Of a stretch of DNA of 64,000 nt, positions 8,004 to 62,088 are shown one piece after another. Origin of the DNA: Paracoccus aerius. GTDB lineage: Bacteria; Pseudomonadota; Alphaproteobacteria; Rhodobacterales; Rhodobacteraceae. The DNA is taken from NCBI RefSeq assembly GCF_014656455.1, contig NZ_BNCL01000008.1, forward strand, positions 62,001-126,000, given 5' to 3'. Position numbers and translations under genes: made by a program. The notes under the pieces were generated by a model. The model saw only the letters and a program-made list of their open reading frames with translations, ran no database searches and was not told where the DNA came from. Numbering within the stretch: the first letter of the stretch is position 1; each line of letters starts with the position of its first letter.

Positions 8004-8105
8004 GTCCCCGTTCCTTTCGCCGGGCACGATCACGGCCCGAGGGCGCAGGAAAGCCGCCGCAGCGCAAAAGTGCAAGCCGCCGTCTTTCTGCGTCGGGCCG
8101 GCCGG

Positions 8106-8587: not shown

Positions 8588-8656
8588 CCTGCGGATTGTC
8601 CAGTTGAGACCCGCCTGTTTCGCGCAGCATCCTGTCCGAAACCACCCGAGGTGACG

Positions 8657-45663: not shown

Positions 45664-45968
45664 CGGGTCAGCCGGATGAACCTTCGTCTGGCATGGTAAG
45701 ACGGGTTCCAGATCAGAATTGACATGTCAGTTAAGCATGTGGGCGGCCCAAACGAACCGGACGGGACGTTCAGCCCCTGCCGATGAACTTCAAACCCTGA
45801 GACAATCATGACCTTGCGAGGGATTTAACAAGGCAATTACAGTAGGTTGAAAGCGCCTGCCGCCGCACCCCCTTGCATTCCCGCATTTCCCGAGTCTTTT
45901 ACTTGCCAATCCCGGCCGGCGGCGAGGCTTGTCGTCAGCGCCGTGCCCGCATCTTGAAAGGCAGCGTC
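45664..45968 (+). other. Intergenic region upstream of the siderophore importer operon
   Basis: I see no gene in these 305 bases. The interval contains a 16-bp near-perfect palindrome at 45717-45732 (core TGACATGTCA at 45720-45729) and an AT-rich stretch, GGGATTTAACAAGGCAATTACAG (45817-45839 in part), about 130 bases before the GTG start. These are candidates for the promoter and iron-dependent operator of the importer operon. No clear terminator for the helicase gene is visible. Confidence 0.4.
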
Positions 45969-47824: not shown

Positions 47825-48761
47825 CCGGTCCCTGCTGATCCTCGCCGCGGCCTGCGCGGGCGCCGCGGCCGTCTATGTGGCCTGGGGGCTGCAAGGCCCC
47901 TACGGCTTCATCCTGTCGCTGCGCGCGACAAGGCTGGCCGCGCTTGCCATCGTGGGCGCCTCGGTCGGTGCGGCGACGGTGATCTTCCAGACCATCACCG
48001 CGAACCGCCTGCTGACCCCCGGCATCGTCGGCTTCGATTCGCTGTTCGTGCTGATCCAGACCCTGCTGGTGCTTGGCCTTGGCGGCATGGGCTATGCCGC
48101 CCTTCCCGCCTTTCCCAAGTTCCTGGTGGAGATCCTGTGCCTGTGCGCCGTCGCGGTCGCCCTGTTCGCCAGCGTGCTGCGGGCCGGATCGTCGGACATG
48201 ACCCGGCTGGTCCTGACCGGGGTGATCCTGGGCGTGCTGATGCGCGGCCTGACAGGCTTCGTGCAGCGGCTGCTTGACCCGACCGAGTTCGCCCTGGCCC
48301 AGGCCGCCACCTTCGCCAGCTTCAATTCGATTGACCCGGTCCAGGTGGCCTTCGCGGCGCCCATCCTGATCCTGGCCCTGCTTCTGGCCTGGCGCCTTTC
48401 GCCCGTGCTGGACGTCGCGCTTCTGGGCCGGGACGGCGCGCGGTCGCTGGGGGTCGATCACGAGCGGCTGACGATGGCGGCGCTTGCGGTGGTGGCGATG
48501 CTGGTCGCGACCTCGACCGCCGTGGCGGGGCCGGTGACCTTCCTGGGCCTTCTGGCGGCAAGCCTTGCGGCCGCCGCGCTGCCGCACTGGCGCCACGCGG
48601 TGCTGATCCCGGGGGCGGCGCTGACGGGCGCGCTGATCCTGATCGTCGGGCAGTTCCTGTTCGAAAGGCTGCTGGGCCTGCAATCCACCCTGCCCGCCAT
48701 TGTCGAATCCCTGGGCGGGCTGGTGTTTCTGGTGATGGTCCTGAAAAGGCGGACGGCATGA
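47817..48761 (+). CDS. Iron-siderophore ABC transporter permease (FecCD family, second subunit)
   Basis: This 314-residue permease shows LRATRLAALAIVGASVGAAT, the family's ITANRLLTPGIVGFDSLFVL and the cytoplasmic loop ARSLGVDHERLTMAALAVVA, then VAGPVTFLGLLAASLA. It forms a heterodimeric pore with the preceding permease. Start ATG 47817 lies within that gene; the stop overlaps the ATPase start by ATGA (48758-48761). Confidence 0.9.
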   Translation: MADRSLLILAAACAGAAAVYVAWGLQGPYGFILSLRATRLAALAIVGASVGAATVIFQTITANRLLTPGIVGFDSLFVLIQTLLVLGLGGMGYAALPAFPKFLVEILCLCAVAVALFASVLRAGSSDMTRLVLTGVILGVLMRGLTGFVQRLLDPTEFALAQAATFASFNSIDPVQVAFAAPILILALLLAWRLSPVLDVALLGRDGARSLGVDHERLTMAALAVVAMLVATSTAVAGPVTFLGLLAASLAAAALPHWRHAVLIPGAALTGALILIVGQFLFERLLGLQSTLPAIVESLGGLVFLVMVLKRRTA

Positions 48762-49516
48762 TACGGGTAACGAACCTTGGCCTGGCCATTGACGGCAAGA
48801 CGATCCTCCACGACATCAGCGCCCGGATCCCGCCGCAAGGCCTGACGGCGGTGATCGGCCCCAACGGCGCGGGCAAGTCCAGCCTGCTTTACTGCCTGTC
48901 GGGCCTGACCCGGCCGACATCCGGCCAGGTCAGCATCGACGGCGCCGACATCACGGCGGCGCGGACGACGGATCGCGCCAGGATGCTGGCGCTGCTGCCG
49001 CAGGTGACGCCTGCCCTGCCCCGGCTGACAGTGGCCGACCTTGTGGCCTTTGGCCGCTGGCCCCACCACAGGGGCCGTCCCAACGACACGGACCGCCGCA
49101 TCGTCGCACAGGCAATCCGGGACCTGGATCTGGACGACCTGCTGGACCGCCGCCTCGATACCCTGTCGGGCGGGCAGAGGCAGCGGGCCTTCATCGCCAT
49201 GAACCACGCCCAATCCACGCCCTGGATGCTGCTGGACGAACCGCTGTCCGCCCTTGATCCGCGCTACGCGTCCGACATCATGGCCCGGCTGGTCGAGCTG
49301 TCGCGTCCCGGCACGGGCCGCGCGATCGTGGTGGTGATGCACGACCTGGCGATGGCCGTGCGCCATGCCGACTGGGTGATCTGCCTGAAGGCGGGCCGCC
49401 TGTTCCGGTCCGGCCCCCCGTCCGAGACGCTGACGGGCGCCGGCCTGTCCGCGCTGTTCGACACCCCCATCCATGTCGAGCATCTGCGCGGCCGCCCGGT
49501 GGTGATCATCGACTAG
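48758..49516 (+). CDS. Iron-siderophore ABC transporter ATP-binding protein
   Basis: This 252-residue ATPase has Walker A GPNGAGKSSLLY, signature [14 protein letters not shown], Walker B PWMLLDEPLSALDP and H-loop VVVMHDLAMA, as in the FepC/FecE group. It ends the importer operon; its TAG overlaps the convergent stop of the DUF2218 gene. Confidence 0.92.
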   Translation: MIRVTNLGLAIDGKTILHDISARIPPQGLTAVIGPNGAGKSSLLYCLSGLTRPTSGQVSIDGADITAARTTDRARMLALLPQVTPALPRLTVADLVAFGRWPHHRGRPNDTDRRIVAQAIRDLDLDDLLDRRLDTLSGGQRQRAFIAMNHAQSTPWMLLDEPLSALDPRYASDIMARLVELSRPGTGRAIVVVMHDLAMAVRHADWVICLKAGRLFRSGPPSETLTGAGLSALFDTPIHVEHLRGRPVVIID

Positions 49517-49821
49517 CCGGTCGCCTGCCCGGCGCCGTCGCGTTTCCAGTCGAAAACCAGTTCCTCGCGGAAGGCGAAGCGCCGCAGGTGGTCGGCCACC
49601 ACCCCCTCCAGCCGGTCCAGCCCCTCGGCCGTGGCGTCGGCGATCTGGACATCCAGCCCGGCCTCGCTGGCCGACAGGGTCACGACCTGGCCGTCGCCGA
49701 ATGCGATGCGCCCGGAACGGTCGTCGAACTCGACCGCGAAGCGGTGGCTCCAATGCTTGCAAAGCTGCTGCAGATAACGGCTGGCATGGCCGGTGGCCGC
49801 ATGGGCACGGGATGTCGTCAT
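49513..49821 (-). CDS. DUF2218 family protein
   Basis: This 102-residue protein matches DUF2218: SRAHAATGHASRYLQQLCKH, FAVEFDDRSGRIAFGDG, LDRLEGVVADHLRRFAFREE and a final FDW. The family is small, cytoplasmic, of unknown function, and often found near siderophore or iron-uptake genes. Here it lies between the importer ATPase (stops overlapping, convergent) and the TonB receptor gene on its own strand. It is 85 bases downstream of that receptor and may be in its operon. No catalytic residues are evident. Confidence 0.85.
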   Translation of the reverse strand: MTTSRAHAATGHASRYLQQLCKHWSHRFAVEFDDRSGRIAFGDGQVVTLSASEAGLDVQIADATAEGLDRLEGVVADHLRRFAFREELVFDWKRDGAGQATG

Positions 49822-49906
49822 GGCTTGTCCTTCGAATGGCGGGCTTGCTGCCCCGGTGGAACGGCCGGACGGGGCGATCCGCGCCCGGCCTTGTGCTGTC
49901 CTTGCG

Positions 49907-52135
49907 CTAGAACCTGATCGACGCCGAGAGGGAATAGGTGCGCGGCGCGCCCGCGGACAGGAAGCCCCGCGCCGACGTTGCCCAATAGTTCTCGTCCAGG
50001 ACGTTCTCGACCTGGGCGCGGAGCTGGATGTCCCGGCCGTCGGCCCGTGCCACCGCATAGCGCACCCCCAAGTCGAGCCGGGTCCAGCCGTCCACCTTCT
50101 GGGTGTTGGCCTGGTCGTACCAGGTCGATCCGCCATGCATCAGGCGGCCGGTCAGCGTCAGGTCGCGGATCCCGGGCGTGTCGTATTCGGCGTAAAGGCT
50201 GACCGCCGTGTCGGGAATGCCGGGGGCGTCCTTGCCGTCGAACGCGCCATCCTGGGTGCGAACCAGCGTGGCGTCCAGAAAGGTCACGCCGCCCAGCAGG
50301 CGAAAGCCCTCCATCGGCTCGCCCGCGACCGACAGCTCCAGCCCCCGGTTGCGCTGCTGGCCCCCGACCGAAAAGACGTTCGTGGCCGGATCGGTGATGC
50401 CGTTCGGCTGGCGGATCTCGAACAAGGCCGCGCCAAGGGCCACGGTGCCGGTGTCGTATTTCAGCCCGACCTCGCGCTGCCGGTTGACGGTGGCGGGGAA
50501 GATCTCGCCCCCGTTCACGGCGGCGGTCGGCGCAATCGGTCCCTCGGTCAGCGCCTCGACATAGTTGGCGTAGACCGACAATCCGTCCGTGATCCGATAG
50601 GACGCGGCGACGGCCGGAGTGAAGGCCTCGTCCTCGTAAAGATAGTTCCGCTCGCCCACCGGGGCCTCGGGGATGCCGGGGCGGGTGTTGAAGCCGCGCG
50701 ACCGGATGGTCTGGTAGCGCCCGCCGATGGTCAGTTGCAGCCGGTCCTGGTCAAAGGACAGCGTGTCGGACAGGGCGATGCTGGTCGCCGTGAGATCGGC
50801 GAAGGGGATCAGGTCGCCGGACCGGGGAAGGCCCGTCGTGTCCACCGAACCGTCCGGCAGATAGACCGGGTCATAGATGTTGGTGGGGTTTTCCGGGAAG
50901 ACCAGAAGGCGCGGGTTGAAGCGGCCCCGGTCGTTCTCGTTCACCGAACGCGCCGCCGACAGGCTGAGCGCATGGCCGACGCTGCCCGTCATGAACTGCG
51001 ACCGCAGCCCCACCTCGCCCGAGAAGCCCCGGATCTGCTGCGGGTTATAGCCGAAGGTGTTCAGCGCATCGCCATCCGCGTCCTGGATCACATAGTTCGA
51101 GGTCAGGAAATCCTCGCGGTACCGGCTGGCCCCCGCGGCAGCGTAGATCGTCGTGTCGGGACGGATGTCGTATTCCAGCCGCCCCGCGATCATGCGATGG
51201 CTGCTGTCGTGGTATTCGAAGGGATTGGCGGTGTTCACCTTGCCGTCGGGCGCATCGGGGATGTCGATACCTGGCAGGGCCGCGTTGAACAGCGAGGTCG
51301 GCGCGTCGAGGTTCTGGTTGGACAAGCTCGCATCAAGCGAGGCGCGCAGCCGGTCGCCGCGGTAGTCCAGCCCCAGCGTCGCCACGCCGACCTCGACGCT
51401 GTTGTTGTCAAGCGCGCTGTCGCCCGCCCGCCAGGACCCGTTGGCGCGCAGGCCCCATCCCCCGCCGGTGCCGAAGCGCCGCCCCACGTCCAGATGCGTC
51501 CACACTTGCGAATCCGACAGGATGCTGGTGGTCAGTTGCGTCAGGGCCTGATCGCCCGCCCGCTTGGGCACCAGGTTGATCGTCCCGCCGACGCGACCGA
51601 CCCCGCCATTGGCAAGGGCGGTCGGTCCCATCAGGACATCGACCTGCGCGATGCCTTCAAGCGCGCTGCGGCGGGGGTTGGCCAGATAGGGCAGCCCGTC
51701 GAACAACGTGTCCAGGTTGGTGACGGAAAAGCCACGGATGAAGAAGGAATCGCGCTCGCTGAAGGTGGGGGCGTCCTGACGGACCGAAGGGTCGTTCGAC
51801 ACCAGATCGCCAAGGCTGATCGCCTGCTGGTCCTGGATCAGGGCCTCGGTAAAGCCCGTGACGCGGAACGGTGCCGATTGCGCGTCGCGGTTCCCAAGCG
51901 CGCCAAGCCGGACCTGGGTCGATACCTGGCCGCCTGCATAGGGCGCGGCGGGCGCGTCGATGGTCCCGGTGAGCAGGCCAGCCGCGTCCAGCGTGATCGG
52001 CGCCAGGACCGTGGGTTGGGCCGGATCGGCAACCGGTTGGGCCAGGGCCAGGGCCGGACCAAGCGCGGCCATCGAGACGCCCAGAAGCAACTGCGGAACA
52101 TGTCTGACGAAGTAACGGCTTGCGGGGCGATGCAT
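49907..52135 (-). CDS. TonB-dependent siderophore receptor
   Basis: This 742-residue outer-membrane receptor has a signal peptide (about residues 1-32, ending LALAQP). The plug domain lies at about residues 80-200 (VTGFTEALIQDQQAISLGDL, FFIRGFSVTNLDTLFDGLPY, VLMGPTALANGGVGRVGGTI), and a 22-strand barrel ends in FLSAGAPRTYSLSASIRF with a terminal phenylalanine needed for insertion. Repeated signatures such as LTIGGRYQTIRSRGFN and RNRGLELSVAGEP are typical of FhuA/FpvA-like ferrisiderophore receptors. It likely delivers the siderophore to the FatB-type importer beside it. No receptor N-terminal signalling domain is present. Confidence 0.93.
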   Translation of the reverse strand: MHRPASRYFVRHVPQLLLGVSMAALGPALALAQPVADPAQPTVLAPITLDAAGLLTGTIDAPAAPYAGGQVSTQVRLGALGNRDAQSAPFRVTGFTEALIQDQQAISLGDLVSNDPSVRQDAPTFSERDSFFIRGFSVTNLDTLFDGLPYLANPRRSALEGIAQVDVLMGPTALANGGVGRVGGTINLVPKRAGDQALTQLTTSILSDSQVWTHLDVGRRFGTGGGWGLRANGSWRAGDSALDNNSVEVGVATLGLDYRGDRLRASLDASLSNQNLDAPTSLFNAALPGIDIPDAPDGKVNTANPFEYHDSSHRMIAGRLEYDIRPDTTIYAAAGASRYREDFLTSNYVIQDADGDALNTFGYNPQQIRGFSGEVGLRSQFMTGSVGHALSLSAARSVNENDRGRFNPRLLVFPENPTNIYDPVYLPDGSVDTTGLPRSGDLIPFADLTATSIALSDTLSFDQDRLQLTIGGRYQTIRSRGFNTRPGIPEAPVGERNYLYEDEAFTPAVAASYRITDGLSVYANYVEALTEGPIAPTAAVNGGEIFPATVNRQREVGLKYDTGTVALGAALFEIRQPNGITDPATNVFSVGGQQRNRGLELSVAGEPMEGFRLLGGVTFLDATLVRTQDGAFDGKDAPGIPDTAVSLYAEYDTPGIRDLTLTGRLMHGGSTWYDQANTQKVDGWTRLDLGVRYAVARADGRDIQLRAQVENVLDENYWATSARGFLSAGAPRTYSLSASIRF

Positions 52136-52202
52136 CGGTCCATCCTGAGGTTGAAGAAGACGCGCCAGATCCTGTCACATCGGTCGGCGCTGATTCTTTA
52201 CA

Positions 52203-52208
52203 ATTATA
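52203..52208 (-). promoter_or_regulatory. Promoter -10 candidate TATAAT for the TonB receptor
   Basis: On the minus strand the sequence reads TTGACTATAATTG, with a perfect TATAAT 68 bases before the receptor start. It is flanked by near-matching inverted arms GATTGTT and AAGAATC (6 of 7 bases), a plausible iron-responsive operator. No good -35 is seen at 17 bp. Confidence 0.45.
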
Positions 52209-52363
52209 GTCAACAATCGTGGAAGGGGAAAAAGAACCCGACGGCGCAAGCCGATCTTGCTGGTCTTTCACGGCTTCCTGTTGCGGATCTGCATCTCGTA
52301 GCGCGGCACAGCCGGCAGCGCGGCGCGACTTTACCGAGCCCCGCCTCTGGCCAGCACCCGATG

Positions 52364-52383
52364 CTTTCCGCCTGACCGGAAAG
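52364..52383 (-). terminator. Hairpin after the DUF1513 gene
   Basis: A perfect 7-bp stem (CTTTCCG/CGGAAAG) with a 6-base loop lies 8 bases downstream of the DUF1513 stop on the minus strand, at the end of the imelysin operon. It lacks a U-tract, so termination may need Rho. Confidence 0.45.
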
Positions 52384-52391
52384 GCTGGCGC

Positions 52392-53450
52392 CTAGCCGAT
52401 GCGGACCAGATGGTTGTCCCAGGCCAGGTCGTGGCGGGCGCGCAGGCGCAGGCCGGCTTCATCGGCAGACCAGATCGCGCCGCCGCCATCGGTGAAGGTG
52501 AAGGGGGCGTCGGCTGCGGGGGCCACGCCGCAGATGTCGGCGCGGCGCAGGGTGGCGCGGTGGGCGCCCCCCTCATCATGGATCATCGCCACCCCGCCGC
52601 GGGGCGAGGTCACGGCGATCAGCCCCCCATTGGCCGCGATCGATCCGGCATAGCCGCGCATGGCCGCGGCCTGATCCTCGGGCGGGGTGGCCAGGGCCAG
52701 CGCGGACCCAAGGATGCCCAGCAGCGGGACCGTCTCGGCCGGGTCGCCCTGCCATTGCATGGCAAAGGCAACACCGTCCCGCAGCAGCGCCAGGTGCCTG
52801 ATCGAGTTCTGGTGCAGGCCCAGATCCAGTTCGGTCAGGGACAGAAGCCCGCCCGTCGGCGACAGGACGGCAAGGTTCGGGCGCATCCTGTCCAGGTTCA
52901 GGGGCGTGCGGTCCAGCGGGTCGGTCTCGATCCCGCCATTGGCCTGGATGATCGCCCCGTCCGCGCGGGTTCGCACTTCGTGCGGGCCGATGCCGTGGCT
53001 GTCCATCTGGCCCAGCCGGGCATAGTCCTGCGCGGCGTCCCAGATGCCGATCCGGCCCGCCGATCCCTGCGCCACCACCTCGGAGGTGTAGAGAAGCCGG
53101 CCATCGGGCGAAAAAGCGCCGTGGCCGTTGAACTGCAGGCCCGGCGGCGGCGCAAGGCGGTGCAGGACGGCGCCCGTCCGGCAGTCCAGCACCAAGGCGA
53201 ACAGGCCAGGGCGGCGGGCAAAGGCCACGGCCTCGGCCCGGCCGGGATGGGCGGCTGCGGCATGGCCGCGACCGGGCAGCGGGACCGCGAAGACCAGCCC
53301 GCCGCCGGCGTCGATCCCGTAAAGCGCGTGGCTGTCGTCCGGCGACCGCGCTGCGGCGACCCAGGCGGGCGATCCTGCCGCGGCCCAGCCCCGGCGGGGC
53401 AGGATCGCCGCCGCCGCAAACCCCTTTATCACCATGCGCCGGTTGGCCAT
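52392..53450 (-). CDS. DUF1513 family protein, exported, beta-propeller-like
   Basis: This 352-residue protein begins with NRRMVIKGFAAAAIL, a twin-arginine-like signal (RRMVIKGFA). The rest is a set of repeats that look like propeller blades (GHGAFSPDGRLLYTSEVVA, GIGPHEVRTRADG, ANGGIETDPLDRTPLNLDRM). It matches DUF1513, found at the end of imelysin/di-heme operons. The gene start overlaps the imelysin stop by one base. The function is unknown; a periplasmic role in iron handling with its neighbours is inferred. Confidence 0.85.
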   Translation of the reverse strand: MANRRMVIKGFAAAAILPRRGWAAAGSPAWVAAARSPDDSHALYGIDAGGGLVFAVPLPGRGHAAAAHPGRAEAVAFARRPGLFALVLDCRTGAVLHRLAPPPGLQFNGHGAFSPDGRLLYTSEVVAQGSAGRIGIWDAAQDYARLGQMDSHGIGPHEVRTRADGAIIQANGGIETDPLDRTPLNLDRMRPNLAVLSPTGGLLSLTELDLGLHQNSIRHLALLRDGVAFAMQWQGDPAETVPLLGILGSALALATPPEDQAAAMRGYAGSIAANGGLIAVTSPRGGVAMIHDEGGAHRATLRRADICGVAPAADAPFTFTDGGGAIWSADEAGLRLRARHDLAWDNHLVRIG

Positions 53451-54445
53451 CAGTCACCATCCTTTGCGTTGAACCCGGTCGAGACGCCAAGCGCCGCCCC
53501 GATCTCGGTCTCGACGGCCGCCTGGGCGGATTGCACCGCCTGCTGGAGGATCTCGACCTTCAGCCGCCCTTGGGGCGTTGAAACACCTGCCAGGACCGGG
53601 TCTTCCAGGTCCTGGGCAAGCGCCAGCGCGCGGTCGAAGGCGGCCTTGGTCAGGGGCGCGTCGGGATGCAGCGCCAGGGCCAGATCCCGCAGACCTTCCA
53701 GCGAAAGGCGGATGTTGCGCAGGCTGCGGCCGGACGCCACCGCCTCGGCCCGTTCCGGCCGAGGCTTCTGGAACGTGCCCAGGGGCCGGCCAAGCCGCCC
53801 GTCGGACAATGATGCCAGCCCCGTCACCAGTTGCGTGAACAGCGCCTGCCGCGCCTCGTCCGTGGTCAGGTAGCTGGTGTTCGCGTCGCCGGGCGTCGTC
53901 AGCAGCGCCGCATGGGCCGGCCATTCGGCAGCGATCTCGGCCGTCATCCGCGCCAGATCCGCCGCCGTGGCCCGGCGCAGGGCGCAAAGCCTGTCTTCGG
54001 CACCCGTCAGGGCCGAGGGGTAGAGCAGCCGCTCCAGCCCCGAAAGCCCGCGCGCCGCGACCGAGACCTGGGCAAAGAGGGCGGGATCCGCGATCACCTG
54101 CGGATCGCCCGCGACAAGCGCCTGCTGCGCCCGCAGGCCCGACGATTTCGGATCGGGCCAAAAGGCGATTGCAAGCGACCGCCCCTGTTCCTCGACGGGG
54201 CCGAGGCGCAGGAAATCGATCCGCGCCCAGGCGTCCCAGGCCTGCTGGAACGGCGCCCGCATCGCCGCGGGGGCGCAATCCTGCCGGGCGGCGTCGTCCA
54301 GGTCTGCCGCGGCATCGGCCAGCCCGGCATAGGCGGGCGTGATGACCTGATCCACGGCCTCGGCCAGGTCCGCCGTCGCGGGCGTTCCCAGCAGCGCCGC
54401 AAGGGCTGCAAGGGCCGCCATGCGGGTCAAAGCGATCGGAGCCAT
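53450..54445 (-). CDS. Imelysin family protein, second, lacking the GxHxxE histidine
   Basis: This 331-residue exported protein (signal peptide MAPIALTRMAALAALAALLG, ending ATA) matches the imelysin/peptidase M75 fold: DQVITPAYAGLADAAADLDD, AWDAWARIDFLRLGPVEE and RRPLGTFQKP-like RLGRPLGTFQKPRPERAEAV. In the position of the family's GxHxxE motif it reads ARGLSGLERLLYP, so the histidine is replaced by serine while the glutamate remains. The start at 54445 overlaps the di-heme gene by 19 bases, though a later ATG at 54421 is possible. Its paralogue is at 56032-57282. Confidence 0.85.
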   Translation of the reverse strand: MAPIALTRMAALAALAALLGTPATADLAEAVDQVITPAYAGLADAAADLDDAARQDCAPAAMRAPFQQAWDAWARIDFLRLGPVEEQGRSLAIAFWPDPKSSGLRAQQALVAGDPQVIADPALFAQVSVAARGLSGLERLLYPSALTGAEDRLCALRRATAADLARMTAEIAAEWPAHAALLTTPGDANTSYLTTDEARQALFTQLVTGLASLSDGRLGRPLGTFQKPRPERAEAVASGRSLRNIRLSLEGLRDLALALHPDAPLTKAAFDRALALAQDLEDPVLAGVSTPQGRLKVEILQQAVQSAQAAVETEIGAALGVSTGFNAKDGD

Positions 54446-56019
54446 GCGATCAACGCCTTTCGGTCAGGGGTGGGCAGGGCGACGACCGCGTCGCGGGCGG
54501 GCTGGGCTTCGCCCCCATGCCACAGGATCGCCTCGATCAGGGATCGGGCGCGGCCGTCATGCAGGTAGCTTTCGACGCCCGTGACGGTGCCGTTCAGCGA
54601 GATGCCCCATAAGGGCGCGGTGCGCCATTCGCGACCCGTCGCGCGGCTTTCGGGCCGGTTGTCGGCCAGCCCCTCGCCCATGTCGTGCAGCAGCATGTCG
54701 GAATGGGGCCAGATCAGCTGGAAGCTTTGTTCGGGCCGGCCGTCCAGCCGATGCGTCACGAACTTGGGATTGTGGCAACTGGTGCAGCCGATGTCATGCG
54801 CGATCTTCTTGCCCCGCAGGACCTGCGGATCATCCAGGTCGCGCCGGGCCGGCACCGCCAGGTTGCGGCTGTAGAAGGTCACCAGGTCCAGGCCCAGGCC
54901 GTCCACCTCCAGCCCCTCGCGGACGTCCGGTTCCTGCCCGGCCGGCGCGGCGCGGCAGGCGGCCTGCGCTTCGCTGCATTCGCCGAAGGGAAAGGGGAAC
55001 AGCGGGTTCGACAGGCCCATGTCGCCCAGAAAGGCACTTGCCGATTGTTCGCGGATCGTCGCGTTGCCGGCCTTGTGGCCGAAGCGGCCCAGCATCGGGC
55101 GGTCGAATTCGCTGGACCAGACGATCTGCGGCCTGCCGGATATGCCATCCCCGTCCCGGTCGTCGGCATCGGCCAGGGCCAGGATGTCTGCCACCGGCAC
55201 CGCCTCGAGCAGGCCAAGGCCGATCATCTGCGGGGCGACGCGGGCCGAGATCTGCAGGTCTGGATGCGGCGCGCCATGCACAGGGTCTTCCACCGCAAAG
55301 GACGGGCGGCGCAGTGTGACGACCGTGCCGTCGGCCAGGGTCACGGGTTCCTCGGCCCAGGCGACGCCCATCCGCGCCTCGGCCAGGAAACCCGCCAGGG
55401 CCAGGTCCTGCAACTGCGCCCCATAGACCGGATCGGGGCTGGTGGCGATATAGTCCGGGATCTCGGGCCGGGCAGGTCCGCCGGGGACCGACAGGCGCAG
55501 GAAGGCGGAAACGCGGCTGTCGTCCGGCCCCTGTGGCAGATGCCCGCGCCCGTCCTTGATGTGGCAGTTCTGGCAGGCGCGGGCGTTGTAGAGCGGCCCC
55601 AGCCCGTCGCTGCCTTTGGTCGAGGATGGCGCGCCGACCCAGAGCTTGCGGAAGATGGCGTTGCCCAGCTTGAAATCCATCTCGCGCGCGCGGGGCAGGT
55701 TGGGCGGGAAATGCGAAAAGGCATCCGCGTTCGGGACGAAGCGCGCCGTGGCGGCCCCGGCGGGCTTGTCCTCGAAGGGTTCGGGACGGGTGAAGTCGGC
55801 GGGTGGCGCCAGCACCGCCGCGATGCGCGCGGCCTCGGCCCTTGTGCGGGGGGTGATGGGCAGATGGGGTTCCGCCTGCCAGTCCGTGGCCGTGGCCGGG
55901 CCGGGCGCCACCGGCACCGCCCGCAGCGCATCGGAGGGGGTGTCGGACAGCCCCGGCGCGACGGCCGCGCCAAGGCTGGCCGCCAGGGCCGCAGCCATTC
56001 CGGCCAGGGCGCGCGCCAC
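54427..56019 (-). CDS. Di-heme oxidoreductase family protein (DUF1111)
   Basis: This 530-residue exported c-type cytochrome has two CxxCH heme-binding motifs, ACQNCHIKDG (about residue 150) and GCTSCHNPKF (about residue 403). The N-terminal MARALAGMAAALAASLGAAV resembles a signal peptide. It matches the DUF1111 di-heme (thiol oxidoreductase-like) family: GLGPLYNARACQNCHIKDGR, RFGHKAGNATIREQSASAF and LHDMGEGLADNRPES. It lies between two imelysin genes, an arrangement typical of iron-regulated operons. A role in periplasmic redox or iron release is inferred. Confidence 0.9.
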   Translation of the reverse strand: MARALAGMAAALAASLGAAVAPGLSDTPSDALRAVPVAPGPATATDWQAEPHLPITPRTRAEAARIAAVLAPPADFTRPEPFEDKPAGAATARFVPNADAFSHFPPNLPRAREMDFKLGNAIFRKLWVGAPSSTKGSDGLGPLYNARACQNCHIKDGRGHLPQGPDDSRVSAFLRLSVPGGPARPEIPDYIATSPDPVYGAQLQDLALAGFLAEARMGVAWAEEPVTLADGTVVTLRRPSFAVEDPVHGAPHPDLQISARVAPQMIGLGLLEAVPVADILALADADDRDGDGISGRPQIVWSSEFDRPMLGRFGHKAGNATIREQSASAFLGDMGLSNPLFPFPFGECSEAQAACRAAPAGQEPDVREGLEVDGLGLDLVTFYSRNLAVPARRDLDDPQVLRGKKIAHDIGCTSCHNPKFVTHRLDGRPEQSFQLIWPHSDMLLHDMGEGLADNRPESRATGREWRTAPLWGISLNGTVTGVESYLHDGRARSLIEAILWHGGEAQPARDAVVALPTPDRKALIAWLRSL

Positions 56020-56031
56020 CGCAGGACCGCC

Positions 56032-57282
56032 TTACTGGAAGACCGCGTTCGGATCGTCGAGGCTGTCGGACCCTTCGAAGGCGATGCCATCCAGGCCAAG
56101 GGCCGCGACCGCGCGTTCGATGGATTTCGCCTGTTTCACCAGCCCGTCCACGCCCGCCTGGATGATCGCCGCGCCTTCCTGGTTGCCCGGCGCCAGCATC
56201 TGGTCATAGGCCATCCCCGCTTCGGCCTTGTCGCGCAGCGCGGTCAGCGCCACCATCGTGGCGGCAAGATCGGCCTGCAGCGCCTGATCCACGCCCGCAT
56301 CGGCTTCGGCCACCAGGCCCGACAGGGACGGGCCCGCGACTTCGCTGCCATCCACCCGCACATAGCGGCCCAGATAGACGTTCTGGATGCCAAGCCCGTC
56401 ATGGTAGTGGCTGAGATGGGTCTGGTCCGAGAAGCAGTCATGTTCTTCCTCGGGGTCGTTCAGCATCAGGCCCAGCTTCATCCGCTCTCCGGCCTGCTCG
56501 CCATAGGACAGGCTGCCCATTCCGGTCAGCATGGCGCGCAGCCCGGCCTGCGGATCGGCCGTGACCGCCGCGCGGGCGGGGCCGTCCGTTTCCCAGTTGT
56601 CGGTCATTTCCCACAGGTCGGACACCAGCAGATCGGTCGCCGCGACAAGGTATTGGGCGCGGCGGTCGCAATTGCCGTTGGTGCAGCCCGCGCCCGCCAT
56701 GAAATCCGTATGGGGGCGGCTACCCGCGCCCGGCCCCGTTCCGTTCAGATCCTGCCCCCACAGCAAAAACTCGATCGCGTGATAGCCCGAGGCGACATTG
56801 GCCTCAATCCCGCCGGCCTCGTGCAGCGCGCGGATGATGTGGGGGGTGATGGTCGCCGCATCCACCGTCTCGGATCCCAGTTCAAGGACGGGGTTGGCGA
56901 TCACGTTCAACTGCGCCAGCTCGTTATCCTCGGTCGAGGGGGTGCCTTCGGCGACATAGTCGATCAGCCCCTCGTCCAACGGCCAGGCGTTCACCCGCCC
57001 TTCCCAGTCGTCGACGATGGGGTTGCCGAAGCGGAACACCTCGGACTGCTGATAAGGGACGCGCGCGGCCGTCCAGGCCTGACGCGCGGCGGCCAGGGTT
57101 TCGGGCGAGGGATCTGCCACCAGGTCGCCCACCGCCCGTCGCAGGGCCTGGGCCGTGGACAGGCTGTCCCCATAGGTCGCAAGCGCAATATCCGCATAGG
57201 TGGTCACGACCTCGGGCGGGCCGGCCAGGACAGGGGCGGGAAGCAGGCACAGGACCAGCGGGAATCGACGGCGCAGCGACAT
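56032..57282 (-). CDS. Imelysin family protein (peptidase M75-like)
   Basis: This 416-residue exported protein has a signal peptide (MSLRRRFPLVLCLLPAPVLA) and the complete imelysin motif GYHAIEFLLWGQDLNG (GxHxxE) in the first half; the second half has MKLGLMLNDPEEEHDCFSDQ and SHYHDGLGIQNVYLGRY. Imelysins are periplasmic or outer-membrane proteins linked to iron uptake (IrpA, EfeO-like). I placed the start at 57282 because AAGGA is seven bases before it; the ATG at 57288 abuts that site. It is the first gene of the operon imelysin, di-heme protein, imelysin, DUF1513. Confidence 0.9.
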   Translation of the reverse strand: MSLRRRFPLVLCLLPAPVLAGPPEVVTTYADIALATYGDSLSTAQALRRAVGDLVADPSPETLAAARQAWTAARVPYQQSEVFRFGNPIVDDWEGRVNAWPLDEGLIDYVAEGTPSTEDNELAQLNVIANPVLELGSETVDAATITPHIIRALHEAGGIEANVASGYHAIEFLLWGQDLNGTGPGAGSRPHTDFMAGAGCTNGNCDRRAQYLVAATDLLVSDLWEMTDNWETDGPARAAVTADPQAGLRAMLTGMGSLSYGEQAGERMKLGLMLNDPEEEHDCFSDQTHLSHYHDGLGIQNVYLGRYVRVDGSEVAGPSLSGLVAEADAGVDQALQADLAATMVALTALRDKAEAGMAYDQMLAPGNQEGAAIIQAGVDGLVKQAKSIERAVAALGLDGIAFEGSDSLDDPNAVFQ

Positions 57283-57516
57283 GGTCATTTCCTTGAGGAA
57301 GGCGGGATCAGGGACAGGCACTGCCGGTCCACCCAAGTCTTTTTGTCGGATTTTGTTGCAAGTCAATCGGAATATGCGGCGGCGGGGTTTGCCGGGCTTT
57401 GTGCCCGCCTGCCGTCGCGCCGCGATCACGTTCCCGCGGGCTGCCACCTGCCGGCGGAACGGCCGCCCCCACACTGCGTTGGTCCTGCGAAATGTGACAA
57501 ACAAAGGAGCACCGAA

Positions 57517-57699
57517 ATGGGCGAGATGACCGACAAGCTGAAAGCGGCGGCGAACAAGACGGCAGGCAGCGTGAAGGACGGCATCGGCAAGATGACCGAC
57601 GATCAGTCCCTGCAGGCCGAAGGCAAGGCCCAGAAGACCAAGGGTTCCGTGCAGGACGTGTCGGGCACCGTCAAGGGCAAGCTCGGCAACGACATCTGA
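57517..57699 (+). CDS. CsbD family protein
   Basis: This 60-residue, highly charged protein (MTDKLKAAANKTAGSVKDGI then SLQAEGKAQKTKGSVQDVSG) matches the CsbD-like family, small stress proteins with an internal repeat of K/Q-rich amphipathic segments. AAAGGAG lies 7 bases before ATG 57517. It stands alone with its own terminator. Its molecular role is unknown; general stress induction is expected from the family. Confidence 0.9.
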   Translation: MGEMTDKLKAAANKTAGSVKDGIGKMTDDQSLQAEGKAQKTKGSVQDVSGTVKGKLGNDI

Positions 57700-57722
57700 A
57701 CCAGGGTCCAGTCCCTGCCCAA

Positions 57723-57742
57723 GACCCCGCTTCTGCGGGGTC
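57723..57742 (+). terminator. Strong rho-independent terminator after csbD
   Basis: A perfect 8-bp stem (GACCCCGC/GCGGGGTC) with a TTCT loop is preceded by AA and followed by TCTTG. It lies 23 bases after the CsbD stop. Confidence 0.75.
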
Positions 57743-57931
57743 TCTTGCGTGGCGGGACCGCAAAAATGGCCTTTCCGCGCCATCCGGGCTGAACTTTCAG
57801 CGCCCCGGGGTGTTTGGCTTCACAATCGCCGCCGGTAACGGGACCGAGAGCAGCCTGCGCATCATGACCTGTGGGCCGTTCCCGCATCCTTTTTCCGGCA
57901 GAAGCCATGCGACACGGAAAAGGACCCGCAT

Positions 57932-59590
57932 TTGCCCGATCAAGCCGTCCCCCTCGACCCGCAGACGCCCGATGCCATTCCCGCCCCCGAGGGCGCGACC
58001 CAGGTGATCCAGACGGATTACGAGGTGGGCCAGGACAACATCAACTATCGACGCCGGTTCGTGTTCGAGCTTGATATCCACAACATCGTCTTCAGCATCT
58101 CGGCCCTGGGGGTGGTCGCCTTCACCCTCTTGACGCTGATGTTCCAGAACACGCTGGATCCGCTGTTCGCGGGCTTGCGGGATTTCCTGACGGCGAACCT
58201 CGACTGGTTCTTCATCGTGGTGGGCAACCTGTTCGTGCTGCTGTGCCTGGCGCTGATCGTGCTACCGCTTGGCCGCATCAGGCTGGGCGGGCCGGATGCA
58301 ACGCCCGACTACAGCTATCTGTCCTGGTTCTCGATGCTGTTCGCGGCCGGCATGGGCATCGGGCTGATGTTCTATGGCGTGTCCGAGCCCTTGGGCAACT
58401 ACACCGCCGCCTTCGACGGGCCGGTCACGGGACCGGATGGGGTGCGCACGGACTGGGCGCCCCTGGACGGGGTGCCGGGCGATGCGGAAGGCGCGCGGCG
58501 GCTGGCCATGGCCGCCACGATCTTCCATTGGGCGCTGCATCCCTGGTCGATCTATGCCATCGTCGCGCTGTCCTTGGCGCTGTTCTCGTTCAACAAGGGC
58601 CTGCCGATGACCCTGCGGTCGATCCTGTACCCGATCTTCGGGGAACGGGTCTGGGGCTGGCCGGGCCATGTGGTCGACATCCTGGCCGTCTTCGCGACGA
58701 TCTTCGGGCTGTCCACCTCGCTCGGGCTGGGCGCGCAGCAGGCAAGCGCGGGACTGAACTTCCTGTTCGGGCTGCCCGCCACCACCGGCGCGATGATCTT
58801 CCTGATCATCATCATCACCGGGATCGCCACCGCATCGGTCGTCGCCGGGATGGACAAGGGCGTCAAACGCCTGTCCGAGATCAACATGGGCCTTGCGGTC
58901 CTGCTGCTGTTCTTCGTGATCGCCGCAGGCCCGACGATGCAGATCGCCACTGGCTTCTTCAAGAACCTGCAGGCCTATGCCCAATACCTGCCGGCGCTGT
59001 CGAACCCGGTCGGCCGCGACGACGACAACTTCCGCCAGGGCTGGACCGCCTTCTACTGGGCCTGGTGGATCAGCTGGTCGCCCTTCGTGGGCATGTTCAT
59101 CGCCCGCGTCAGCCGCGGCCGCACCGTGCGCGAGTTCCTGATCGCGGTGCTGCTGATCCCCTCGCTGGTCTCGACCCTGTGGATGACGGCGCTTGGGGGC
59201 ACGGCGATCAGCCAGGTGGTGAACCAGGGGCTGGTCTCGGTCCAGGACGCCGCGCTTGAACTGCAGCTGTTCGAGATGCTGGCCCATCTGCCGCTGACGG
59301 GGATCACGTCGCTGGTGGGGATCGTGCTGGTCATCGTGTTCTTCGTCACCTCGTCGGATTCCGGGTCGCTGGTCATCGACACGATCAGCGCGGGCGGCAA
59401 GATGAACGCGCCGACCCCGCAGCGCGTGTTCTGGGCCACCGTTGAAGGGCTGATCGCGATCGCCCTGCTGCTGGGCGGCGGGCTGGCCGCGCTGCAGGCG
59501 ATGGCAGTATCGACCGGATTTCCCTTTGCCATCGTCCTGCTGGGCGCAAGCTTCGCGCTTGTGAAGGGGCTGATGGCCGAGCCGCGATGA
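57932..59590 (+). CDS. BCCT family osmolyte transporter (choline/glycine betaine/carnitine)
   Basis: This 552-residue membrane protein has about 12 helices. The BCCT signature is in MGIGLMFYGVSEPLGNY, and the substrate-binding aromatic box is in FYWAWWISWSPFVGMFIARV, followed by SRGRTVREFL. No ATG fits the family start; TTG 57932 gives a 36-residue cytoplasmic N-terminus and has AAAAGGA at good spacing, so it is the likely start. The 232-bp gap before it holds the csbD terminator. It presumably imports an osmolyte such as glycine betaine. Confidence 0.9.
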   Translation: MPDQAVPLDPQTPDAIPAPEGATQVIQTDYEVGQDNINYRRRFVFELDIHNIVFSISALGVVAFTLLTLMFQNTLDPLFAGLRDFLTANLDWFFIVVGNLFVLLCLALIVLPLGRIRLGGPDATPDYSYLSWFSMLFAAGMGIGLMFYGVSEPLGNYTAAFDGPVTGPDGVRTDWAPLDGVPGDAEGARRLAMAATIFHWALHPWSIYAIVALSLALFSFNKGLPMTLRSILYPIFGERVWGWPGHVVDILAVFATIFGLSTSLGLGAQQASAGLNFLFGLPATTGAMIFLIIIITGIATASVVAGMDKGVKRLSEINMGLAVLLLFFVIAAGPTMQIATGFFKNLQAYAQYLPALSNPVGRDDDNFRQGWTAFYWAWWISWSPFVGMFIARVSRGRTVREFLIAVLLIPSLVSTLWMTALGGTAISQVVNQGLVSVQDAALELQLFEMLAHLPLTGITSLVGIVLVIVFFVTSSDSGSLVIDTISAGGKMNAPTPQRVFWATVEGLIAIALLLGGGLAALQAMAVSTGFPFAIVLLGASFALVKGLMAEPR

Positions 59591-59607
59591 CGACCCTCGG
59601 GCGGGCG

Positions 59608-59626
59608 TGCCGGATCAGGACCGGCA
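59608..59626 (+). terminator. Weak hairpin after the BCCT gene
   Basis: A 6-bp stem (TGCCGG/CCGGCA) with a 7-base loop lies 17 bases after the BCCT stop, followed by more GC-rich self-complementary sequence but no U-tract. It may be a terminator shared with the convergent small gene. Confidence 0.35.
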
Positions 59627-59657
59627 GGCCCCTGGCCGGCGGGGGCGACGCGCTGCC

Positions 59658-59918
59658 CTAGCCGGTGCGGAAGGCGACATAGCCTGTCATGCTGTCGTCG
59701 AACTGCTGGCGATAGCCGCCGTCGGTCGTGATCCTGACCACCGTTGCCTCGAACGCGGGGCCATCCTCGGGCGCGATCCTGATGGTCCTGGCCCCGGTGA
59801 ACTGGGTCGCGCGGACGGGGATGGCGGTGAAGGCGATCTCGCCCTCGGTCAGGTTTCCGTATCTGATCGACCCGTCGAACGGGCCCAGATCGTCGATGCT
59901 GAATGTCACACGGGTCAT
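59658..59918 (-). CDS. Small hypothetical protein, 86 residues
   Basis: I do not recognise this protein. It is 86 residues, has no cysteine or signal peptide, and looks all-beta (TRVTFSIDDLGPFDGSIRYG; EGEIAFTAIPVRATQF; RTIRIAPEDGPAFEATVVRI). The start at 59918 has GGAGGAT about 9 bases upstream. It is convergent with the BCCT gene (67 bases between stops) and codon use is like its neighbours, so it is probably real. A strong hairpin lies 57-99 bases upstream of the start in its leader region. Confidence 0.6.
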   Translation of the reverse strand: MTRVTFSIDDLGPFDGSIRYGNLTEGEIAFTAIPVRATQFTGARTIRIAPEDGPAFEATVVRITTDGGYRQQFDDSMTGYVAFRTG

Positions 59919-59974
59919 GGCTGATTGATCCTCCTGCCGCTGCAAACCCAACAACCTGCTGCGGGACCTGTTCC

Positions 59975-60017
59975 ATCGCCCCGGGCGGGCCGGATCCCGC
60001 CACCCGCGCGGGGCGAT
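59975..60017. repeat. Long nested hairpin in the 551-bp interval
   Basis: A perfect 8-bp outer stem (ATCGCCCC at 59975-59982, GGGGCGAT at 60010-60017) encloses a further GCGGG/CCCGC stem. It lies upstream of the small hypothetical gene and is followed on the plus strand by TAACCTTTGTTCC. It could be a regulatory leader structure or terminator for an unseen transcript. The rest of 59919-60469 holds only two small open frames. Confidence 0.45.
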
Positions 60018-60129
60018 TAACCTTTGTTCCATGCGGCCGGTGGAACAGATGCCCCCCCTGGCGGTTCATCCTGCGTGATCGGCCAGGGACGGGTCTCTTG
60101 CGAGGCGGTTCCACAACAAGAGACAGGCA

Positions 60130-60380: not shown

Positions 60381-60469
60381 TGACATCCGGCGGCCCCTGA
60401 CAGGCGGGGTCCGCGCCGCAGCACATGCCCACCGTCCCCCGACGATGCGCCCGAACAGAAGCGAGCAAG

Positions 60470-62026
60470 ATGAAAGTAACGGATACCAAACACGAATCTG
60501 TTGCGCTGTTTCCAGGCCATCCCCGGGCTCGGCACGACGAGGATCACCGCCGCCATCTGAACGATCCGGGCGGTCGCGCCCTGGCCATTGCCCGGCGGCA
60601 GGAACAGCCCGCCACGGGGCGGCCGCTGGCCGTCGACCTGGACGGGACGCTGATCCGGTCGGACCTGCTGATCGAGACGGCCTTCGCCGAACTGGGCCGG
60701 CAGCCCCTGTCGCTGGTCGGCATGGTCGGCGCCCTGGCCGGCGGCAAGGCCGCGCTGAAGCACAAGCTGGCAGAAAACGCCGATTTCGACCCGTCCACCC
60801 TGCCCTATGATCCCGTGGTGCTGGATTACATCCGGGCGGCGCGCGCGCAGGGGCGGCAGGTCTATCTGGCATCGGCCAGCCATGAACGGCTGGTCAAGGC
60901 CGTCGCGGACCACCTGGGCCTGTTCGCGGGCTGGTTCGCGTCCAATGCCGAAACGAATTGCGGCGGCAGGGTCAAGGCGCAGAAGCTGGTCGCGGCCTTT
61001 GGCGAAGGCGGCTTCGACTATATCGGCAACGACGCGGCGGATCTGCGGGTTTGGGACAAGGCCGGCAAGGCCATCGCGATCCGCACATCCGGGCGCGTGA
61101 ACCAGGATCTGAAACGGGCGCATCGCGATGTCGAGGTGCTGTCCTGGGAAAGGCCGACCTGGCGCAGCTGGGCCAAGCTGGCGCGCACCCACCAGTATTC
61201 CAAGAACGCCCTGCTGTTCGTGCCGCTGATCACCGCCCATGCCTTCGAGCTGGTGGCCTTTCTGCAGGTCTTCCTGGCCTTCGTGGCCTTTTCGCTCTGC
61301 GCGTCCAGCGTCTATATCCTGAACGACCTTGTCGATCTGCAGGATGACCGCAAGCACCGGACGAAATGCAACCGCCCCCTGGCCAAGGGGACGATCCCGC
61401 TGGCGCAGGCGCTTGTGGCGATGCCGGTCCTGCTGGCCCTGTCGATGGGTCTGGCGGCAGCCATCTCGTTGCCGTTCCTGGGCATCCTGGTGATCTATTG
61501 CGTTCTGACCACCACCTATTCCTTCTTGCTGAAGCGCAAGGCGCTGCTTGATGTCCTGTCGCTTGCGGGCCTTTACACCCTGCGCGTCATCGGCGGCGCG
61601 GTGGTGCTGGGCGTGACCGTGTCGGCCTGGCTTCTGGCCTTTTCGATGGCGCTGTTCCTTTCGCTGGCGCTGATCAAGCGGTTCGTCGAACTGGCCGCGC
61701 GGCTGGATGCCCACCTGCCCGACAGCAGCAGCCGCGGCTATCGCAACACCGACGCAGACCTGGTGATGATGCTGGCGGCCGCGTCCGGCTTCAACGCGGT
61801 CACCGTGTTCATCCTTTATGTCTCGAACGAAAGCATGACGCTGCTCTACAGCACGCCGCAGATCCTGTGGCTGGCGGCACCGATCCTGACCTACTGGATT
61901 GCGCGGATGCTGATGCTTGCGCATCGTAGGGTCATGGATGACGATCCGGTGGCATTCGCGACGCGGGACAGGGCCAGCATGATCTGCGGCGCCCTGATCG
62001 GTCTGGTGATGTTCGCAGGGGCGTGA
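60470..62026 (+). CDS. HAD-UbiA fusion, polyprenyl-phosphate phosphoribosyltransferase-like
   Basis: This 518-residue protein has an N-terminal HAD phosphatase domain with PLAVDLDGTLIRSDLLIE at about residue 55 (DxDGT, nucleophile aspartate) and VYLASASHERLVKAVADHLG, then a UbiA-type membrane domain with the prenyl-diphosphate motif SVYILNDLVDLQDDRKHRTK and NRPLAKGTIP, plus the second motif YSFLLKRKALLDVLSLAGLY. Fusions of this kind are predicted decaprenyl-phosphate phosphoribose (DPPR) synthase/phosphatase pairs, which make polyprenyl-phosphoryl ribose after dephosphorylation. The downstream DprE1- and DprE2-like genes would turn it into the arabinose form. The N-terminal 45 residues before the HAD domain are poorly conserved and the ribosome site is weak. 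Confidence 0.85.
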   Translation: MKVTDTKHESVALFPGHPRARHDEDHRRHLNDPGGRALAIARRQEQPATGRPLAVDLDGTLIRSDLLIETAFAELGRQPLSLVGMVGALAGGKAALKHKLAENADFDPSTLPYDPVVLDYIRAARAQGRQVYLASASHERLVKAVADHLGLFAGWFASNAETNCGGRVKAQKLVAAFGEGGFDYIGNDAADLRVWDKAGKAIAIRTSGRVNQDLKRAHRDVEVLSWERPTWRSWAKLARTHQYSKNALLFVPLITAHAFELVAFLQVFLAFVAFSLCASSVYILNDLVDLQDDRKHRTKCNRPLAKGTIPLAQALVAMPVLLALSMGLAAAISLPFLGILVIYCVLTTTYSFLLKRKALLDVLSLAGLYTLRVIGGAVVLGVTVSAWLLAFSMALFLSLALIKRFVELAARLDAHLPDSSSRGYRNTDADLVMMLAAASGFNAVTVFILYVSNESMTLLYSTPQILWLAAPILTYWIARMLMLAHRRVMDDDPVAFATRDRASMICGALIGLVMFAGA

Positions 62027-62088
62027 TCCATGGTGGCAAGCAGCGCCGCCTGCGCAGGGCCGCGGTTCTTTCGGTGGAGCAGTGTCGT

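Follow-up and report, generated by a model that had tools for sequence, protein, structure and literature searches.

An order-stable operon of two imelysins, a di-heme protein and a predicted propeller in Paracoccus aerius, possibly a periplasmic redox station for iron

The stretch of DNA considered here (64,000 nucleotides of contig NZ_BNCL01000008.1 from Paracoccus aerius, hereafter the window) carries on its minus strand four closely spaced genes which, in order of transcription, encode a first imelysin (IM1), a di-heme c-type protein (DHOR), a second imelysin (IM2) and a protein of the DUF1513 family (Table 1). A first-pass annotation, made from the letters alone, had described these genes as an operon, and their coordinates, strand, Pfam identities and all three junctions (a gap of 12 bases between IM1 and DHOR, an overlap of 19 bases between DHOR and IM2, and another of 1 base between IM2 and DUF1513) are exactly as it had given them, so that the four-gene observation is confirmed. 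The exported DHOR does contain two CxxCH motifs (C149/C152/H153 and C412/C415/H416; residues 149-153 and 412-416), present in 180/180 DHOR sequences, and DUF1513 does start in a Tat-like manner, with a twin arginine, R4 and R5, kept in 172/176 and 174/176 sequences, respectively.

Table 1. Features of the locus, with their positions in the window (PWM, position weight matrix)
Feature	Position	Strand	Basis
Imelysin 1 (IM1; ICMP/IrpA type, M75)	56032-57282	minus	PF09375, E 4.6e-84
DHOR, di-heme c-type protein, GTG start	54427-56019	minus	PF06537, E 3e-87
Imelysin 2 (IM2; IPPA/PA4372 type)	53450-54445	minus	PF09375, E 2.8e-40
DUF1513, Tat motif, predicted seven-bladed beta-propeller	52392-53450	minus	PF07433, E 5.8e-98
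TonB-dependent siderophore receptor	49907-52135	minus	PF00593, PF07715; TIGR01783 above cut-off
DUF2218 protein, 3' of the receptor	49513-49878	minus	PF09981, E 1.1e-31
Fe-siderophore-type ABC importer (binding protein, FecCD, FecCD, ATPase)	45873-49516	plus	PF01497, PF01032 (two), PF00005
Weak iron-box-like palindrome 5' of the IM1 gene	57344-57362		PWM, 9.1 bits, rank 5 in 64 kb
Weak iron-box-like palindrome 5' of the receptor gene	52194-52212		PWM, 6.4 bits, rank 15 in 64 kb
Weak iron-box-like palindrome 5' of the importer genes	45887-45905		PWM, 9.8 bits, rank 4 in 64 kb

Among 149 genomes sampled from the same family, profiles matched DUF1513 in 70, DHOR in 73 and M75 in 73, with all three together in 66. 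When 60 of the 70 DUF1513 loci were fetched (10-18 kb each), DHOR and DUF1513 were found in all 60, IM2 in 59 and IM1 in 58, and the full order IM1-DHOR-IM2-DUF1513 on one strand in 55, the distance from IM1 to DHOR spanning 67 to 2195 bases. The five exceptions are as follows: L046 and L051, where IM1 is located on another contig, and L043 and L068, where it is encoded on the opposite strand; in L089 (genome G007) DHOR adjoins DUF1513 without IM2 between them, and a second M75 imelysin is encoded on that contig at a distance of about 80 kb. A search of the phylum matched DUF1513 in 86/398 genomes (80 above the cut-off), and a distant set of 40 loci, chosen because they hold DUF1513, was fetched from 65 non-family genomes with a full-length match, seven weak matches being excluded and extra IM2 hits overlapping DHOR ignored; here the same order on one strand was found in 40/40. 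The claim that the order is conserved in several proteobacteria is thus borne out, and, because the same genes recur in the same order and on one strand in so many related and distant loci, the run is not a product of chance. Two tandem DHOR genes stand between IM1 and IM2 in L109 (5232-8435) and L125 (4711-7841), the PF06537 match of the first copy being split in two, the better part of which reaches position 420-421 in a profile of 499.

A further set, picked by IM1 and consisting of the top 80 among 590 or more matches (overlapping extra hits ignored), shows the full order in 74/80 named loci. In L155 the last three genes are inverted and in L168 the sequence ends early, and four loci (L133, L142, L162 and L163) carry IM1-DHOR without IM2-DUF1513, with DUF1513 encoded elsewhere in 3/3 searchable genomes, from which it follows that the two pairs can part. 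One of these, L133, from an uncultured Paracoccus, has the nearest named IM1 among the matches listed (80% identity), from which very close records may be missing. Two further proteins recur in the 60 family loci: one of up to 180 residues and of unassigned family, mostly between hemP and IM1 (18/60; L036:3908-4447 type), and an exported one of 339 residues, a porin by look, between IM1 and DHOR (11/60; L034:4713-5729 type).

The system belongs to a kind already described. In the passages of Xu et al. (2011) drawn on here, PA4370-PA4373 of Pseudomonas aeruginosa are presented as an operon under Fur control which encodes two imelysins and a DUF1111 protein, called an "EfeB homologue"; Fur regulation is also reported for the Vibrio cholerae genes VC1264-VC1267, the imelysins are distinguished by GxHxxE versus GxxxxE, and a peptidase role is argued against (PMC3143127). 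The window resembles both operons in having a GxHxxE and then a GxxxxE imelysin around DUF1111 (now DHOR), and it has four genes as PA4370-PA4373 do, the passages of Xu et al. leaving the family of the fourth protein unnamed. The imelysin pair, the DHOR between the two and the DUF1513 in fourth place are all found in the window, which differs from PA4370-PA4373 in that a box of IscR type (weak in the window) is to be expected instead of Fur, and in that a siderophore locus adjoins. VC1264, VC1265 and VC1266-7 also appear in an expression table of a paper on the regulation of iron uptake in V. cholerae (PMC7600106), and the orthologues of VC1264 and VC1265 are listed as up in iron-limitation studies common to V. 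cholerae and A. salmonicida (PMC4324432). For Rhodobacter sphaeroides, the genes hemP-irpA-bfd-bfr-RSP_1545-1544-1543 are said to be cotranscribed, iron regulated and part of the IscR regulon with an Iron-Rhodo-box (PMC4618611), irpA and hemP being reported as 19.7-fold and 34.7-fold up in iron limitation (PMC3413700), and the iron response of irpA as 5.40 in oxic against 0.78 in anoxic conditions, with a lower oxic induction in an oxyR mutant (PMC4176601). As far as these sources describe it, this operon shares with the window irpA, a gene for a di-heme protein called a "thiol oxidoreductase", and two more genes, but the abutting run of four genes in the window has no hemP, bfd or bfr inside. 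The term "DUF1513" is absent from all 5.39 million papers covered by the literature search. In other words, the operon of P. aerius is an alphaproteobacterial version of a known kind of system without a biochemical function in the literature found.

By sequence, DHOR matched cytochromes c among the solved structures (best E 3.9e-9) and, weakly, the bacterial cytochrome c peroxidase (bCcP) 3o5c (E 0.0064), and Pfam reported PF06537 alone, not PF03150. Its AlphaFold2 (AF2) model, with a predicted local distance difference test (pLDDT) score of 86.7 and residues 22-37 and 132-137 below 50, gave one Foldseek hit below 0.001, the gamma subunit of hydrazine synthase (5c2v_C, E 2.9e-4), whose alignment has a poor root-mean-square deviation (rmsd) of 12.1 Å. 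With VIA-align the model reached Z 11-16 to bCcP/MauG entries, among them CcpA of P. aeruginosa (2vhd; Z 15.6, rmsd 3.9 Å, 254 residues), a MauG-like copper-homeostasis protein (6e1c; Z 14.9) and MauG itself (Z 14.6), the first row after this superfamily being TsdA at Z 4.4; and hhalign joined DHOR to PF03150 relatives over 107 C-terminal columns (probability 97.5, E 8.3e-12). The second heme is described as Met-His in bCcP and as Tyr-His in MauG and BthA (PMC6405878). In 14 PF03150 relatives the residue 14 places beyond the final H[DNS]G histidine proved to be Met in seven (L213-L219) and Tyr in six (L221-L226), L220 being unassignable; in DHOR this axial-ligand position is occupied by a histidine (His487-x13-His501) in 180/180 sequences. 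Because of the fold matches, and because His501 stands where the relatives have Met or Tyr, DHOR is, as modeled, a protein of the bCcP/MauG fold that represents a third axial type and whose C-terminal heme would be bis-His (His416 and His501). It has in common with that superfamily the fold over about 250 residues, the two CxxCH and the C-terminal H[DNS]G, and differs from it in the axial residue and in a beta-rich insert which the model places between the hemes. H445, W127, W465, W500, C348 and C355 are likewise kept in 180/180, and the genome of P. aerius also encodes a protein of bCcP type whose axial residue is Met (L219). The label of oxidase given to DHOR in the first-pass annotation is thus tentative, as the protein has the bCcP/MauG fold and its predicted bis-His heme would suit electron transfer no less well.

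DUF1513 has no clear homologue among solved structures by sequence, the matches being scattered and weak (best E 0.0012). Its AF2 model is confident (pLDDT 94.8) and is, by structure matches, a seven-bladed propeller. These matches are unspecific, with 971/971 aligned chains at Z ≥8; the rank of the hydrazine synthase beta subunit, which matches no better than other propellers do, therefore carries little weight. Only five of the 13 histidines of the window protein are kept in 175-176 of 176 sequences: H63, H110, H157, H219 and H347. When seven inner strands were assigned from the DSSP string and extended by up to three residues (55/352 residues, with limits set after the histidines had been seen), the histidines within these stretches were exactly the five conserved ones, one per blade in five blades, for which the chance among 13 histidines is 0.0008; H347 lies between two short bridges rather than in a strand of regular form. 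The histidine precedes the turn glycine between strands 1 and 2 by seven residues in blades 1, 2 and 4, and by eight in blade 3, and blade 7 has no comparable turn; this spacing in blades 1-4 is the reason for regarding the histidines as occupying matching blade positions. Y267, D345, R61, R218 and S216, in the same inner stretches, are at least 97% conserved. In the model these features suggest a pocket in the central channel upon which the five histidines would converge. Propellers that bear metals are not without precedent, as in NosZ, with seven histidines, and the carotenoid oxygenases, with four. The twin-arginine motif fits the export of DUF1513 folded with a cofactor, without being proof of one.

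A precedent for the pairing of the two proteins is found in hydrazine synthase (5C2V), where the gamma subunit is described as having a bis-His heme and as forming a complex with a beta-propeller subunit that lacks a cofactor (PMC12607021). The operon would resemble it in joining a MauG-like di-heme protein, bis-His as predicted by spacing, to a predicted propeller, and it differs in that the propeller of hydrazine synthase is cofactor-free and in that no alpha-like subunit was found among the four genes of the window.

The two imelysins seem to have diverged in their capacity to bind metals. IM1 has a signal peptide, no lipobox by eye, and ICMP (7xrx, E 8.4e-188) as its nearest solved relative; the GxHxxE motif (G166 and H168 in 179/179, E171 in 178/179) and the acidic residues D91, E94, E104 and D108 (each 179/179) are conserved, as are five Trp and seven Tyr in at least 93% of the 179 sequences. 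EfeM is reported to take up Fe2+, Fe3+ and Cu2+ on incubation, with about 1.3-1.4 Fe per protein (PMC9174327), and, matched by spacing, IM1 resembles it in the HxxE of site III and in the acidic residues of site IV. IM2, whose nearest solved relative is IPPA (3pf0) and which hhalign relates to IM1 at E 8.6e-11, has GxxxxE (G133 in 170/176, E138 in 161/176) without a conserved histidine, and Q87, S90, K100 and L104 stand at the places of D91, E94, E104 and D108. As judged from these residues, IM1 keeps metal sites of the published type and IM2 has lost both. IM2 also has a C-terminal GFNxxDGD (window 53453-53476), with D329, G330 and D331 in 172-173 of 176 sequences.

With respect to regulation, a palindromic sampler applied to 57 upstream sequences (56 loci and the window) found a 19-bp motif without prior sequence knowledge, with a total score of 473-562 over three runs compared with a maximum of 374 among 12 sets of dinucleotide-shuffled sequences; it superseded an earlier dyad count in which one spacing, CCGA-N9-TCAG, was enriched (18/57). 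A PWM was trained on the relatives, with the window excluded (leave-one-out median 14.3 bits), and 77 named loci were scored, three having been dropped as the same DNA as the training set. When these loci were grouped by their record titles, 51/59 of Rhodobacterales type passed the 95% shuffle threshold, against 1/18 of Hyphomicrobiales or Achromobacter. The palindrome fits the published Iron-Rhodo-box, to which it is likened by length and palindromy only. In the window, three promoter regions have such a site (Table 1), that of the importer lying ahead of an in-frame GTG at 45969 which may be the start codon; each of them alone is weak, but taken jointly they are unusual (4/20,000 random placements and 95/20,000 GC-matched ones). 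The iron link that had been attributed to the four genes stands, as far as the sources cited show: Fur regulation in Xu et al., the rise of irpA in iron limitation, its place in the IscR regulon, and the palindrome before the operons of most relatives.

Downstream of the four genes lie the TonB receptor, the DUF2218 gene and the convergent ABC importer. In the family it is rather hemP and bfd that recur beside the operon (24/60 loci each), and tblastn with the receptor and importer of the window found in the 60 loci one receptor, one FatB, two FatD and five FatC, a search that undercounts divergent receptors. At a distance of 13 kb, chosen post hoc, a TonB receptor (Pfam Plug) is linked to the operon in at least 9/70 DUF1513 genomes (G000, G008, G035, G063, G083, G092, G118, G134 and G137) versus 1.02 expected, nine being a lower bound that includes the P. 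aerius receptor as counted from the window; without this genome the figures are at least eight versus 0.98. In G023, of the same genus (L083), neither of two TonB receptors is linked. Plug is present in 50/70 DUF1513 genomes versus 36/79 others (Fisher p 0.0016) and PepSY_TM in 41/66 operon genomes versus 24/83 others (p 6e-5), both being statistics that ignore phylogeny. PepSY_TM proteins include reductases of the FsrB/FoxB type. No association was seen for FeoB_C (4/66 versus 3/83) or Nramp (15/66 versus 12/83), FTR1 (PF03239) had no match in the genome of P. aerius, and in 49/66 operon genomes neither FTR1 nor FeoB_C nor Nramp gave a match above the cut-off. A siderophore locus as an obligate partner was considered and is rejected, since the receptor is linked in a minority of the genomes. 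Of the siderophore uptake noted in the first-pass annotation, its presence beside the operon stands, with a linkage about nine times that expected by chance, but it lies outside the conserved unit; nor are these genes consistently unlinked from iron uptake, given that linkage and the more common receptors.

On the other side of the operon, a CsbD-like gene of 60 residues (57517-57699, plus) is divergent from it, with about 230 bases of shared promoter region, followed farther on by a reading frame of 124 residues without a Pfam match (59658-60032, minus) and by a row of genes (60425-63809) for a UbiA prenyltransferase that has a HAD domain at its N terminus, for a GtrA-like protein and for an FAD_binding_4 oxidase, which by inference resembles sugar-lipid genes of the decaprenyl-phosphoryl-arabinose type (DprE1-like). 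Rfam at the gathering threshold matched no structured RNA in 44000-60000, and a scan for promoter and terminator consensus in 49000-58000 gave a site count not above that of shuffled sequence.

If these elements are brought together, a tentative proposal, still somewhat short of an even chance, is that the operon encodes a periplasmic redox station which releases iron and holds it for importers. Its parts, order and motifs are observed and its folds predicted, and the complex, the metal, the direction of the electrons, the substrate and the importer would be as follows. Iron reaching the periplasm through the outer membrane would enter the station; the C-terminal heme of DHOR (His416 and the predicted His501) would take electrons and pass them to the other heme; and at that heme, or at a docked DUF1513, the hold of the chelate on ferric iron would be loosened, a one-electron reduction being the simplest way, with the five-histidine pocket in the channel offering a site for the metal or for a metal chelate. 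IM1 could then pick up the iron at its acidic (D91, E94, E104, D108) and HxxE (H168, E171) sites and hand it on to importers elsewhere or next door, and IM2, having lost its metal sites, may act as a structural or docking partner. The oxic bias in the induction of irpA points to ferric iron or oxygen, and, together with the 49/66 genomes without the three ferrous-permease families, it suggests that most of the iron released by the station goes to ABC importers rather than to Feo or EfeU. Of the earlier suggestion of a periplasmic module for iron capture or reduction, the exported proteins and the iron link hold, and capture or reduction themselves are what the proposal would supply.

An alternative would be that the operon is an importer of the EfeUOB type which has lost its permease gene and uses an FTR1 encoded elsewhere. 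Xu et al. do compare the operons and name PA4371 an EfeB homologue, and the two systems have in common an M75 imelysin domain, a heme protein and the link to iron. Nevertheless, FTR1 is above the cut-off in 3/66 operon genomes versus 5/83 others, and IM1 and IM2 lack the cupredoxin domain (PF09375 alone), an absence which by itself would not exclude EfeUOB, since M75-only forms of EfeM/EfeO exist. Moreover, EfeB and FepB are described as DyP enzymes, heme peroxidases which work with M75 partners in the use of heme iron (PMC3577903), so that the label of EfeB homologue has to be corrected, DHOR being a di-heme protein of MauG fold. The four genomes with M75 but without DUF1513 (G052, G077, G085 and G131) all have FTR1, and in one of them, G052 (L227), a cupredoxin (4221-4664), FTR1 (4661-5524), an M75 imelysin carrying GYHAIE (5607-6953), a DHOR (7032-8411) and an IM2-like protein (8315-9436) follow one another on one strand. 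The IM2-like protein matched weakly (hidden Markov model E 7.6e-7; no Pfam match) but has the same C-terminal DGD; the H[DNS]G motif is missing from the DHOR, and DUF1513 from the locus. L227 thus appears as a hybrid of Efe and imelysin-DHOR operons, the one mixed counter-example to the rejection of EfeUOB membership that follows from the FTR1 distribution, the DHOR fold and the missing cupredoxin, and it links imelysin-DHOR pairs with iron being handed to a permease of the inner membrane. The FTR1 version of this alternative, largely refuted by the distribution, is very improbable, and delivery to another permease already belongs to the redox station. Lone DHORs also exist in G108, G113 and G146 (L228-L230), with the axial-position histidine in 3/3; that of L230 (6614-8631), without imelysins, is convergent with a small exported protein, cupredoxin-like by eye, with a PepSY_TM gene at a distance of some 4 kb.

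Other explanations assign to DHOR a chemistry based on peroxide. It could be a maturase like MauG or MbnH, which with peroxide would oxidize aromatic residues of a partner, imelysin or DUF1513, and so make or repair the iron site. The fold matches to 6e1c and MauG, the co-encoding of possible partners and the conserved Trp and Tyr of IM1 favor this idea. So does the substrate of MauG, which contains a seven-bladed propeller subunit. However, MauG works through a high-valent state, and the axial replacement of Tyr by His in BthA, as reported for MauG, abolishes the near-infrared feature which is its spectroscopic mark, although BthA keeps peroxide reduction (PMC6405878); with histidine there in 180/180 DHORs, we consider such a maturase unlikely. 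DHOR could also be a peroxidase which breaks heme or a siderophore oxidatively, IM1 catching the iron set free, in line with the family being called putative peroxidase in Pfam, with the frequent neighborhood of hemP, a hemin uptake protein, and with the described work of EfeB/FepB beside M75 partners; but those enzymes are DyP and not of the bCcP/MauG fold, and the receptor of the window passes the cut-off of the siderophore model and not those of the heme models, which leaves this explanation with rather little probability. If, finally, DHOR removed periplasmic peroxide and the imelysins sequestered loose iron against Fenton chemistry during iron uptake, the bCcP fold and the behavior of irpA, induced far more in oxic conditions and less so in the oxyR mutant (PMC4176601), would be accounted for, but the near-constant presence of the propeller and IM2 would not, and a Met-type bCcP protein is already encoded in the genome; such a guard against oxidative stress is improbable.

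Returning to the redox station, we count in its support the conserved gene order and joint occurrence of the families, the iron response of irpA, the palindrome before relatives' operons, the fold and axial histidine of DHOR, the five inner-strand histidines of DUF1513, the enrichment of TonB receptors and PepSY_TM, the hybrid L227, the EfeM-like sites of IM1 and the parallel with hydrazine synthase. A bolder formulation, more doubtful than the station as such, would make of DUF1513 a new class of metalloprotein, a Tat-exported propeller with a ring of five histidines that binds iron, another metal or heme, and which with a bis-His MauG-fold partner, DHOR, as in hydrazine synthase, would form an iron-releasing periplasmic oxidoreductase serving IM1 across proteobacteria without a dedicated inner-membrane permease. 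Several points weigh against the redox station. A metal at the DUF1513 histidines is predicted from the model only, and the propeller of hydrazine synthase is described as cofactor-free; the status of H501 as a ligand comes from spacing, not from a heme-bound structure, and a peroxidase role retains some probability because the His variant of BthA kept peroxide reduction. A product in the form of Fe2+ would lead one to expect a ferrous permease, yet in most operon genomes (49/66) FTR1, FeoB_C and Nramp are all missing, Mn/Fe ABC importers being outside this test, and it is here that a purely reductive model is weakest. The set of L227 goes without a propeller, which speaks against an obligate DHOR-DUF1513 complex; in 4/80 named loci the pairs IM1-DHOR and IM2-DUF1513 are separated; the sites of the window are weak (9.1, 9.8 and 6.4 bits versus the median of 14.3); and the co-occurrence tests ignore phylogeny and genome size.

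In summary, the four genes of P. aerius represent a very order-stable set of iron starvation which also occurs in P. aeruginosa and V. cholerae and to which the papers found assign no biochemical function. The axial histidine of DHOR and the five-histidine pattern of DUF1513 are new and testable features, which narrow the question of that function to specific tests.

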